DNA of 6,329 bases from an uncultured Oscillospiraceae bacterium (GTDB lineage Bacteria; Bacillota_A; Clostridia; Oscillospirales; Oscillospiraceae): the NCBI GenBank assembly GCA_944385265.1, contig CALWWO010000093.1, forward strand, positions 1 through 6,329, in the 5' to 3' direction. The translations under genes were made by a program, and so were the position numbers. Positions 1,994 through 5,501 of this stretch are shown one piece after another. Numbering within the stretch: position 1 is the stretch's first letter; the number at the start of each line of letters is the position of its first letter. The notes under the pieces are model-generated. The model searched no databases, was not told the DNA's origin, and was given only the letters and a program-made list of their open reading frames with translations.

Positions 1994-2242
1994 AAGTTAG
2001 CTTGCCGATAAAGCTGATTGCACCGCGTTTTAGAAATCTCAGAACGCTTTTGCTCAACACTGTCATGCTTTTTATTCTACCGTGCTAAAATTAAGATCAG
2101 GGCCAAATCAATCTTAACAAGGGTAGAATGTACTTAGCAACAGCCGATACGCGAAAGCGAGCAACCTAAAGTAAAGAAACTTTATTTTGGCTGTACCTCA
2201 AAATTTCTCTCCAACACTGGCGCATCAATATCGGGTGAACTT
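1994..2242 (+). ncRNA. Probable structured non-coding RNA with two pseudoknots; class not recognised
   Basis: Mutually compatible complementary segments cover about 250 bases. They are: closing helix AAGTT 1994-1998 / AACTT 2238-2242; hairpin AGCTT 1999-2003 / AAGCT 2011-2015, whose loop CCGATA (2005-2010) pairs with TATCGG 2229-2234; interrupted helix 2016-2024 / 2219-2226; hairpin GCGTTTT 2025-2031 / AGAACGC 2041-2047; ATTCTACC 2074-2081 / GGTAGAAT 2122-2129 enclosing TTAAGAT 2091-2097 / ATCTTAA 2111-2117; pseudoknot TGCTAA 2083-2088 / TTAGCA 2134-2139; and a three-way junction ACAGCC 2140-2145 / GGCTGT 2189-2194. That junction holds CGC-GAAA-GCG (2150-2159) and a 9-base-pair hairpin 2168-2176 / 2180-2188. 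The GAAA loop and two G-U pairs favour the plus strand; on the minus strand it would be the oppB leader. No protein gene overlaps it. The clostridial raiA-motif RNA is one class to test; I do not recognise it with certainty. Confidence 0.65.
2055..2219. repeat. Two copies of CAACACTG inside the structured RNA
   Basis: CAACACTG occurs at 2055-2062 and at 2212-2219. Both copies lie in stretches left mostly unpaired by the proposed fold. The first is just after the 2025-2047 hairpin, and the second is directly before, and one base into, the closing-helix strand. The symmetric placement could mark a repeated binding element, but an 8-base match is short. Confidence 0.4.
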
Positions 2243-2256
2243 TAATTTCACATATC

Positions 2257-2643: not shown

Positions 2644-3474
2644 TCAATCTCTGGCTATAGTTATTTTATATGACGAAACGCCGATATAGTTTCCGTCTTT
2701 ATCAAAATTATTCAAACCATTATACACAAAACAGGTCAGATATATGTCGCCAACTTCTGTAACTTCCGCGCCCGAAGTAAGCTTTATTGATGAAATAATG
2801 GTCTCATCATCTATATCAACATCAGACAAATGGGTATACCACACTCCCGGCGTCTGATTTATATCGTCATACATATATACCTCTATGTATTCAAAGAACT
2901 CGTCAGCATCGCTCGGTTTCAGCAGCGTCTTCGAGATTTCAGTTCCGTCGCTAATTGAAAATTCAATATGAAAACCTATTTTTGAATTTTCCGTATCTTT
3001 ATAAGAAGTCCATGCGTCTTTCCAAATAGAAGAGAAAGATTCTCCTTCCAGCAGCTCTTCTTGAGAAGCGATCACCTCAAAGCAATCGATATCTGTCCCA
3101 GCAACTCTTGAAGACGAAAATCCTGAAATCAACTTGCGCGCAGCGCTGCCATTATCAGCCGGCAAATATATACCGATTACATCCGGATATATATCGTCTA
3201 TCTTTTCGGATTGGGTAGGGGAGGCGTCTGTCTGATTGCCGCCCACAGCGCCCGGCTGACCTCCACCGCTCATTTCCTCTTCACCGTCTGATATAGTCAG
3301 ACCCTGTTCGTTTGTAGACGTATCACTTTGCACGGAAACACTGTCACTTATGTCCGTATCCGGCGCATCGCTATTGCCGGAGCTTATGATAAATACCACA
3401 AAAACGGCTACAAGAATGACCGCGGCAAGCAGTATAAGCCCGCAATAAATATTTAATCTAGCAGCACGTTTCAT
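2644..3474 (-). CDS. Membrane-anchored extracytoplasmic protein of unknown function
   Basis: The 276-residue product has a short basic start (MKRAARLN) and one hydrophobic segment at about 9-31, which is an uncleaved anchor or signal peptide. There is no lipobox cysteine after it. Residues 32-92 are a Ser/Thr/Asp/Gly-rich, probably unstructured spacer. Residues 93-276 look like a compact, acidic, beta-rich domain ending DGNYIGVSSYKITI. The topology suggests a small cytoplasmic tip and a globular domain outside the membrane. I do not recognise a family or catalytic motif. The ATG is supported by GAAGG about 9 bases upstream. A promoter with an extended -10 box lies just upstream, so it can be transcribed apart from the cotJ operon 75 bases behind it. 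Read-through from cotJ is also possible because no terminator separates them. A sporulation role is only suggested by location. Confidence 0.8.
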   Translation of the reverse strand: MKRAARLNIYCGLILLAAVILVAVFVVFIISSGNSDAPDTDISDSVSVQSDTSTNEQGLTISDGEEEMSGGGQPGAVGGNQTDASPTQSEKIDDIYPDVIGIYLPADNGSAARKLISGFSSSRVAGTDIDCFEVIASQEELLEGESFSSIWKDAWTSYKDTENSKIGFHIEFSISDGTEISKTLLKPSDADEFFEYIEVYMYDDINQTPGVWYTHLSDVDIDDETIISSIKLTSGAEVTEVGDIYLTCFVYNGLNNFDKDGNYIGVSSYKITIARD

Positions 3475-3509
3475 AATTCAAACCTTCACGTTAAAATCTA
3501 ACTTTAAAG

Positions 3510-3538
3510 ATTGTACCACAAAATTTTCAATCTGTCTA
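3510..3538 (-). promoter_or_regulatory. Sigma-A-type promoter with extended -10 for the 276-residue membrane protein gene
   Basis: On the minus strand TAGACA (3538-3533, 5/6) and TACAAT (3515-3510, 5/6) are exactly 17 bases apart. TGG directly before TACAAT gives an extended -10. The predicted start near 3503 leaves a leader of about 30 bases with a ribosome binding site. This is the best housekeeping-type promoter in the window. Confidence 0.6.
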
Positions 3539-3558
3539 TCGATAATTTTTCAATCTGT
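3524..3558. repeat. Direct repeat TTTTCAATCTGT overlapping the promoter
   Basis: Two identical 12-base copies lie at 3524-3535 and 3547-3558, offset by 23 bases. The first covers the -35 edge and spacer of the promoter at 3510-3538. The second includes the stop codon and last codons of cotJC. The placement fits a tandem operator, but a small local duplication explains it equally well. Confidence 0.5.
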
Positions 3559-4092
3559 ACGTTTTGCTTCACCGAAGCGTTGGTAATGTACGATTTCACG
3601 CTCTCTGAGGAACCTGATTACATTATTTACATCAGGATCGTCAGAAAGCCTTAAAATATTATCATAAGTGCTTCTGGCTTTTTGTTCTGCTGCCATATCC
3701 TCGGTCAGATCCGTGATAGTATCTCCTTTGACCTGCATCGTCGCAGCAGTCCACGGGGTGCCGGAAGCAAACTGAGGATATACCCCGGCGGTGTGATCTA
3801 CGAAATACGCGTCGAATCCAGCTGCCTTTACATCCTCGACAGTCATGTTACGTGTCAACTGGTATACGATTGCTCCGATCATTTCAAGATGCCCAAGCTC
3901 CTCGACGCCGATATCAGTGAGCAATCCCTTTAGCTCTGGATACGGCATAGAGTACCGCTGGCTTAAATATCGAAGAGAGGCGCCCAGCTCTCCGTCCGGA
4001 CCTCCGTACTGTGAAATTATAAACTTAGCGAGCGCAGGATTTGTGTTGCTTATTTTAACCGGATATTGTAATTTTTTCTGATACACAAACAT
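3550..4092 (-). CDS. cotJC: Spore coat protein CotJC, manganese-catalase family
   Basis: The 180-residue product aligns by eye over its whole length with CotJC (about 189 residues). It begins with YQKKLQYPVKIS and has the hallmark QYGGPDGELGASLRYLSQRY. The di-manganese ligand set of Mn-catalases is intact: Glu35 (DGELGAS), Glu65 and His68 (VEELGHLEMI), Glu136 (EDMAAEQKAR) and His169 (REREIVHYQRF). The spacing follows the four-helix ferritin-like fold. Hydrogen peroxide breakdown is therefore possible. In spores the protein is deposited in the coat by the mother cell with CotJA and CotJB. The ATG overlaps the stop of the upstream cotJA-cotJB gene by one base (TAATG). Its ribosome binding site, AAAGGGG, lies inside that gene, so translation is probably coupled. 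The C terminus is a few residues shorter than usual, with no sign of truncation. Confidence 0.95.
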   Translation of the reverse strand: MFVYQKKLQYPVKISNTNPALAKFIISQYGGPDGELGASLRYLSQRYSMPYPELKGLLTDIGVEELGHLEMIGAIVYQLTRNMTVEDVKAAGFDAYFVDHTAGVYPQFASGTPWTAATMQVKGDTITDLTEDMAAEQKARSTYDNILRLSDDPDVNNVIRFLREREIVHYQRFGEAKRTD

Positions 4093-4568
4093 TATTTATC
4101 GCCCCTTTCTGAATATTCCCAGGGCCACGGGGAGTTGAGCCATGTGTATGACGAGCAATTCTCAAGATCCTTTACCATGATAGGACCATAAAGCTTTGTG
4201 TATTTTTCCCTGCCCTCATTCGACAGCTCTATCAAACTTTTCAAAGTAGCAAAAGCATCAGCATCGTTCGGATGAGTGTCGAGATAGAGATTCAACTCTT
4301 TTATTGCAAAATCGATCGCCATAAGCTCTCCCAACGGCGTACCAGCATAAGGGTTGTTTTTATTCGCAATATTCATAAATGGCAGATCAAGTCCAGGAAA
4401 CAGCGTTCCACGTGTAAGCGCCTCGGCGTTCCCGTAACGCGGCGTATTATCTTGCTGCATTGGTACATAAGCGGCGGCTAAAGGCGCGCAGTTAGGCAGC
4501 TTGCCGTTCTTGTAGTCGCATTTCTGAGCAGATGCGTTTAATACAGCCTTGTTTTTATTGTCTTCCAA
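4092..4568 (-). CDS. Fused CotJA-CotJB spore coat protein
   Basis: One 158-residue frame contains two coat-protein families that are usually separate genes. Residues about 29-64 are CotJA-like (LAAAYVPMQQ, then EALTRGTLFPGLDLPF). Residues about 78-153 are CotJB-like (LGELMAIDFAIKELNLYLD, THPNDADA, LYGPIM, and the terminal SPWPWEYS). The junction (65-77) is a short Asn/Gly/Pro linker. The internal Met65 has no Shine-Dalgarno upstream, so an independent cotJB start there is unlikely. The gene starts with TTG, supported by a strong AAGGAGG about 8 bases upstream. It is first in an operon with cotJC, overlapping it by one base. In Bacillus subtilis the separate cotJA, cotJB and cotJC genes are mother-cell genes under sigma-E, and the three proteins depend on one another for coat assembly. 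A fusion would fix CotJA and CotJB at equal amounts. No enzymatic residues are apparent. Confidence 0.88.
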   Translation of the reverse strand: MEDNKNKAVLNASAQKCDYKNGKLPNCAPLAAAYVPMQQDNTPRYGNAEALTRGTLFPGLDLPFMNIANKNNPYAGTPLGELMAIDFAIKELNLYLDTHPNDADAFATLKSLIELSNEGREKYTKLYGPIMVKDLENCSSYTWLNSPWPWEYSERGDK

Positions 4569-4724: not shown

Positions 4725-5501
4725 ATGAAAGCCGTTATAATCACCCGCAAGATTGCAATTATAATACTGGTTGTGATAATATGTATTAGCAGCATAACCT
4801 ACTTTTCGTCAATATCCGAAATAGCGCCTGTAAGTTATCTCGGCGCTATAGGTGGCGGCGTCAGCTATTCAAAAATCCCGCTCAACCTCATCATAGATCC
4901 GGGGCACGGGGGATATGACGGAGGCGCTGTCTCTGACAGGGGCACAGTCGAAAGTGTAATAAATCTTGAAATAGCTTTGAGATTAGAGCAGCTTTGCGGC
5001 TTCTTGGGATTTGAAACTGTAATGACACGCAATTCGGAAGAGATTGAATATCCTCCTCAAGCAGATACGATAAAGACTAAAAAAACAGCTGACCAAAAAG
5101 CGCGCCTTGCTTTAATCAATGATACTGAAAACGCCGTTTTAATCAGCATCCATCAAAATTGTTATCCCGACGAAAGACCGTTCGGCGCCCAGGTTTTATA
5201 TGCGCCTACAGACGGCAGTAAAGAATTTGGAGAGTATATGCAAAATATGATGCTCCAGCATCTGATTCCGAATAATCGCCGTACAGCGTCTTTGATAAGC
5301 GAAAATATCTATTTGATGAACAATATATCTTGTCCCGCAGTTTTGATCGAGTGTGGATTTATATCAAATTATAGCGAGGAAAAGCTGCTTAATACGCACG
5401 AATATCAGCTTAAAATAGCTACTGTTGCCGTATCCTGCTATGCGGAAAAGCTGGAGCTGTTTTTAAATCTCTACGAGGGAGTACATACGAATGAAAAGTA
5501 A
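4725..5501 (+). CDS. cwlD: N-acetylmuramoyl-L-alanine amidase, CwlD type (spore cortex)
   Basis: The 258-residue protein has one N-terminal membrane or signal segment (about 9-28) and an Amidase_3 zinc hydrolase domain (about 53-247). Expected metal and catalytic residues are present: His61 in LIIDPGHGGYDGGA, Glu82 in INLEIALRLE, His143 in ISIHQNCYP and Glu209 in VLIECGFISN. The enzyme cuts the amide bond between muramic acid and L-alanine in peptidoglycan. The CwlD subgroup strips the peptide so that muramic-delta-lactam can form in spore cortex, which germination enzymes need. The single-domain layout without SH3 or SPOR repeats, the length and the location next to coat genes favour CwlD over vegetative amidases. 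The ATG is supported by GGGGAGG 7 bases upstream. It is divergent from cotJ, and its last 11 bases overlap the start of radA. Confidence 0.85.
   Translation: MKAVIITRKIAIIILVVIICISSITYFSSISEIAPVSYLGAIGGGVSYSKIPLNLIIDPGHGGYDGGAVSDRGTVESVINLEIALRLEQLCGFLGFETVMTRNSEEIEYPPQADTIKTKKTADQKARLALINDTENAVLISIHQNCYPDERPFGAQVLYAPTDGSKEFGEYMQNMMLQHLIPNNRRTASLISENIYLMNNISCPAVLIECGFISNYSEEKLLNTHEYQLKIATVAVSCYAEKLELFLNLYEGVHTNEK

Follow-up and report, generated by a model that had tools for sequence, protein, structure and literature searches.

A candidate structured leader RNA upstream of the oppBC genes in an uncultured Oscillospiraceae bacterium

Introduction

The rod-shaped 6S RNA is distinguished by its large central bubble. 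For the clostridial raiA motif, or ModT RNA, eight helices, two pseudoknots and 97% conservation at more than 25% of the nucleotides are given in its description (PMC11751092). RNA thermometers of the ROSE-like type have already been reported ahead of opp genes and of further genes for ABC transporters (PMC11342760). In ROSE-like elements the motif U(U/C)GCU pairs with the ribosome-binding site. Here, these systems are compared with an element found in a stretch of 6,329 nucleotides of an uncultured Oscillospiraceae bacterium, hereafter the window, where the original prediction had placed a structured, apparently non-coding and unclassified element in the gap adjoining the opp genes; this much is supported by the present analysis. 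No published description of the element was found among the papers that the literature searches listed.

Comparison with known RNA families

The element has in common with the raiA motif (ModT RNA) its clostridial origin, a length of about 200-250 nt and a compact, apparently non-coding character, but it is without a match to the raiA model (RF03072). The original prediction had offered raiA as a guess, which fell away when the model was absent at E<=10 from either strand of a 301-base query and nothing in the window reached its cut-off of 101.3 bits, while as a positive control the same model gave 192.1 and 170.8 bits in two of 13 clostridial genomes (G006 and G012). The scan of Rfam that had been proposed along with the guess likewise supplied no family, since none of the 4227 families of Rfam 15 reached its gathering cut-off in the whole window. 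The matches at E<=10 were at chance level, namely SCARNA24 (8.7) and C0719 (8.1), which lie beyond the block, and, with a 301-base query, two matches to TtnuCD17 (4.4) and to the Molybdenum riboswitch (7.3), the latter at 2019-1960 of the minus strand and scoring 11.0 bits where the cut-off is 36. A search for tRNA and tmRNA gave none.

On the minus strand the element is predicted to be rod-like, a resemblance to 6S RNA that was compared through Rfam; unlike 6S RNA, it has a tight three-way junction instead of the large bubble and appears to run into oppB. The 6S candidate was rejected, there being no Rfam 6S match and no large central bubble in the predicted fold.

With the ROSE-like thermometers (PMC11342760) the element would share a structured leader ahead of a peptide-import gene, but its folded domain stops about 83 bases upstream of the ribosome-binding site of oppB. 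In nested folding of the predicted leader this site stays mostly free of pairing at 25, 37 and 45 C, and at 37 C its bases have a probability of 0.59-0.90 of being unpaired. The copies of U(U/C)GCU at 2164-2160 and 2140-2136 are not partners of this site, and the thermometer was rejected as a candidate. The UUGCU at 1906-1902, lying over the start codon, pairs weakly with the GG of the site (0.12-0.28, nested folding), and this pairing rises, rather than falls, with heat. Orphan riboswitch-type leaders from GC-rich intergenic regions are similar in that a block rich in GC stands in an AT-rich gap ahead of a transporter gene, but they are defined by conserved alignments, whereas the element is a single known sequence.

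Genomic setting

The coordinates of the genes and of the predicted features are collected in Table 1.

Table 1. Genes and predicted features of the window, in order of position
Feature	Position	Strand	Remark
oppC-type permease	40-1011	minus	
oppB-type permease	959-1906	minus	TTG start at 1906
AAGAAGG, likely oppB ribosome-binding site	1915-1921	minus	role suggested by distance to start codon
5-bp hairpin, loop carrying one strand of 2005-2010/2229-2234	1999-2015		complementarity
Main domain, closed once-branched rod	2005-2234	minus	85 pairs, 12 G-U
Closing stem, 3' strand (TATCGG as read on minus)	2005-2010	minus	pairs with 2229-2234
Apical rod	2059-2144	minus	includes 2129-2122/2081-2074, 8 perfect pairs
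Lone side hairpin of three-way junction	2162-2193	minus	predicted helix list
Closing stem, 5' strand (CCGATA)	2229-2234	minus	pairs with 2005-2010, probability 0.96-1.0
Small hairpin GTGAA/TTCAC directly 5' of domain	2235-2251	minus	MFE structures
Promoter-like TTGCAA-17-TAAAAT	2257-2285	minus	consensus match 9/12
Terminator-like hairpin upstream of promoter-like site	2325-2341	minus	1 found vs 0.4 expected in shuffles
orf3, orphan gene	2644-3474	minus	no Pfam or NCBIfam match
cotJC	3550-4092	minus	spore-coat gene
Fused cotJA-cotJB	4092-4568	minus	spore-coat gene; both domains in one open frame, apparent fusion
cwlD	4725-5501	plus	
radA	from 5491	plus	

The element sits between oppB and orf3 in a gap of 737 bases (1907-2643), which had been described as being without protein genes; it does hold no gene with a family match, but two short plus-strand frames without family (1668-1931 and 2504-2689) overlap its edges. 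The GC content is 41% in the block versus 22% and 27% in its flanks. The nearest RadA fragment among 394 genomes of one order was 71% identical, and the nearest oppB product, within the best 80 of 330 loci, 53% identical, so that there was no near relative for comparison. These values, together with the orf3 homologues described below, suggest an uncultured lineage related to Oscillospiraceae.

Homologues of orf3 were found in 110 proteins of the protein collection at E<=0.001, its own copy included, two of them carrying a precomputed Pfam assignment to PF21827, and at the genome level in one of 400 and two of 149 genomes, genome G001 being in both sets. In G001 the orf3 homologue adjoins cotJC, as in the window; this genome, which has an oppB homologue too, holds no such element either beside orf3 or upstream of oppB, which counts against a leader. 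The name cotJC is our own reading of a Mn-catalase match adjoining cotJA/B. At the G001 locus (L117, 2329-2826 and 3014-3676) the start of the cotJC frame looks altered, and the adjoining frame appears, as we read it, to be serine-recombinase-like; a rearrangement and an assembly error are both possible sources. Separately, a second region where both strands are predicted to fold with unusual stability (z down to -4.3) lies at 3485-3834 of the window; it takes in the gap between orf3 and cotJC together with the 3' part of the latter gene.

Folding of the two strands

A structured RNA is expected to fold more stably than its shuffles, and this was found on the minus strand, where the domain 2005-2234 has a minimum free energy of -73.9 kcal/mol, as low as which came none of 400 and then none of 2000 shuffles. 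The wider stretches 1994-2242 (-76.3 kcal/mol; 0/400) and 1980-2255 (-77.3 kcal/mol; 0/200) behaved alike. In a scan of both strands with 610 windows, each 230 bases long, a length that was picked after the fold had been seen, minus 2005-2234 ranked first (z -5.03), while coding windows of the same contig reached z -4.27, which counts against a leader. When the choice of boundaries was allowed for by letting both ends move on a 15-base grid, the best real value was matched in 3 of 150 shuffles if either strand counted, in 1 of 150 on the minus and in 5 of 150 on the plus strand; the significance of the minus fold after this correction is moderate. A coarse scan in steps of 125 bases, whose 250-base windows cut through the rod, did not pick out the element, and there the plus window 2001-2250 (z -1.77) lay below the minus windows 2080-2329 (z -0.95) and 1955-2204 (z -0.42).

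The pairing of G with U separates the strands more decisively than the direct difference of their energies, which 79 of 1000 shuffles equalled. With G-U pairs forbidden, both strands were alike and weak (27 of 1000 shuffles for 2005-2234, 151 of 1000 for 1994-2242 and 97 of 1000 for 1985-2256). Admitting them brought 26.0 kcal/mol on the minus strand, a gain reached by 9 of 1000 shuffles, and 9.7 kcal/mol on the plus strand, where 148 of 1000 gained equally. In a strand-neutral fold 12 G-U stand against 4 A-C, which by our arithmetic is about what composition would give and is not decisive, and the plus strand is the better fit for the GAAA loop and for two helices that each contain a G-U. The minus strand is, in our judgement, considerably the likelier of the two.

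The direct repeat CAACACTG is found at two places within the element (2055-2062 and 2212-2219), and there are also two copies of GCCGATA (2004-2010 and 2143-2149). The helix 2005-2010/2229-2234, which served as a loop pseudoknot in the original prediction, becomes the closing stem on the minus strand; the hairpin 1999-2015 could form a pseudoknot with it, provided that both coexist. The stretches 1917-1927 and 2168-2178 are arms with 82% complementarity, which in principle would let the side hairpin pair on the minus strand with the bases at the oppB ribosome-binding site; this pairing is absent from the best partners listed in nested folding.

The original prediction had assembled its helices into a single pseudoknotted fold of the plus strand, and as complementarity those given with coordinates are present, 2023-2024 having been named without a partner: the terminal helix 1994-1998/2238-2242 (5 bp), the hairpin 1999-2003/2011-2015 (5 bp) with its loop 2005-2010 complementary to 2229-2234 (6 bp), 2025-2031/2041-2047 (7 bp, one of them G-U), 2083-2088/2134-2139 (6 bp), 2140-2145/2189-2194 (6 bp), the GAAA-loop hairpin with its 3-bp stem, and 2168-2176/2180-2188 (9 bp, one of them G-U). 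The flanks said to resemble a tetraloop receptor, CCTAAAG (2165-2171) and TTTTGG (2185-2190), exist too, but the final GG of the latter also takes part in the helix 2140-2145. The union of the helices into one unusual fold was not confirmed. The nested set, as we took it over from the original prediction with 2020-2022/2051-2053, 2074-2081/2122-2129 and 2091-2097/2111-2117 added and the pseudoknots left unscored, came to -40.0 kcal/mol versus a plus optimum of -59.6 kcal/mol, that is, 19.6 kcal/mol above the best. In the plus ensemble, restricted to nested folds, the pairing probability is 0.02-0.03 for 1994-1998/2238-2242 and 0.0 for 2140-2145/2189-2194. Plus 1994-2242 was equalled by 12 of 400 shuffles (z -1.81) and plus 1980-2255 by 6 of 200 (z -2.38), while for plus 2005-2234 none of 400 and then 4 of 2000 were as low. 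A crude score permitting pseudoknots favoured neither strand (3 of 60 shuffles on the plus, 4 of 60 on the minus). With nested folds clearly stronger on the minus strand, the original prediction appears to be right in place and probably wrong in strand and fold.

Promoter-like sites and the start of oppB

Along the minus strand the terminator-like hairpin is followed by the promoter-like site, the folded block, the ribosome-binding site and oppB. The promoter-like site would start transcription near 2250. In the region 1880-2660, seven promoter-like sites were found versus 3.4 expected in shuffles, so that single sites carry little weight; none of those on the minus strand lies between the domain and oppB. 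In the predicted leader, the start codon of oppB has its last two bases mostly paired. No terminator-like site was found on the minus strand between 2005 and 1906, and neither kind of classical riboswitch platform, a terminator or an occluded ribosome-binding site, is visible, which counts against a leader.

Search for relatives

The searches of genomes, plasmids and phages found no homologue of the element, and this again counts against a leader. With blastn there were no matches in phages and one 36-base match in plasmids (E 0.3); 13 of 14 genomes gave matches at E<=10, those listed being all 15-39 bases long, and a set of 200 genomes gave two at E<=0.01, both within protein frames. A plus-strand covariance model (R1) was run on overlapping sets of 250, 40, 1, 391 and 110 genomes, where the searches of more than 40 genomes used stricter filters by which weak matches are lost. 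Four matches were reported, of 25.2, 19.4, 18.0 and 16.4 bits, three of which (L122, L118 and L119) fall within open frames. The fourth (L116, genome G337, 16.4 bits) is intergenic, with 65% identity over 66 bases, in a gap that seems, by our reading, to begin with a terminator, and it was judged a chance match. On 92 loci or stretches only the window scored well with R1 (next best 13.8 bits), as it did with the minus-strand model R2 on 100 loci or stretches (next best 12.7 bits). Two pattern scans of viral contigs gave one match, which does not extend, and none, respectively, and a search with a translated frame found no relatives miscalled as proteins. That these searches came back empty is no proof that relatives do not exist, because a one-sequence model is insensitive and metagenome contigs lay outside the search.

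Discussion

The GC island between the promoter-like site and oppB was read as a structured 5' leader of the oppBC mRNA, a reading based on the strength of the fold, the G-U signature, the island itself and its position. A minus transcript would begin near 2250 and read into oppB at 1906, with an untranslated leader of about 340 nt holding the folded domain of 230 nt (2234 to 2005), closed by CCGAUA/UAUCGG and bearing, besides a long apical rod, a single side hairpin. This domain would act in cis on the oppBC mRNA, and since neither a terminator nor a ribosome-binding site that is clearly occluded was found downstream of it, it would most likely be a landing pad for a ligand, a protein or a small RNA, or else protect the mRNA from decay. 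That a structured RNA element exists here is likely, an orphan leader RNA of putative function is plausible, and a riboswitch-like nature is possible; the candidate cis-acting leader on the minus strand is tentatively taken as the best explanation overall.

Its main rival, somewhat unlikely in our view, is that a decayed gene, or else an old mobile or inverted-repeat insertion, makes up the GC island, with a fold that arose partly by chance and has no RNA function. The GC fraction of the block (0.41) is indeed near that of coding sequence (0.43-0.46), no relative was found in the collections searched, the boundary-corrected fold test stopped at 3 of 150, G-U-free folding is barely unusual and the wobble types are near composition. 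A G-U gain on one strand is, however, not expected of decayed DNA, no stop-free stretch of more than 48 residues overlaps the block, and the blastn searches turned up no copies in phages and only the short plasmid match. A stand-alone small RNA from the same strand, processed or ended near 2000 and acting in trans like other rod-shaped RNAs such as 6S RNA, would agree with the closed rod, the near-complete pairing and the promoter-like site of its own, but no terminator-like site stands at its 3' end, no 6S or other relevant Rfam family was matched at E<=10, and the tight junction takes the place of a large central bubble; we consider it improbable.

We consider as quite improbable the pseudoknotted plus-strand RNA at 1994-2242, with its loop of the GNRA type and a bulge resembling a receptor. 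Its helices exist as complementarity, GAAA is a GNRA loop on the plus strand only, where two helices have their G-U, a promoter-like site lies on this strand at 1928-1957, the fold of 2005-2234 is rarely equalled by shuffles, and under the score that permits pseudoknots it does at least as well as the minus strand. Nevertheless, the plus strand was the weaker one in the shuffle tests with G-U, the 610-window scan and the boundary-corrected test, the coarse scan excepted; its nested fold is far from its own optimum, no terminator-like site was found on it in 1880-2660, and the next plus-strand gene with a family match is at 4725, with only short frames without family before it.

For the leader of oppBC on the minus strand, an extended version, likewise quite improbable in our view, would make it a new class of large leader RNAs, sensing a signal from peptides, amino acids or nutrients and controlling the peptide importer of an uncultured Oscillospiraceae-like lineage, with relatives only in unsampled metagenomes. 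The case shows that strand-specific G-U pairing can indicate the likely strand of a single sequence without homologues. If transcribed, the element would add a large leader RNA of unclassified kind to peptide uptake.
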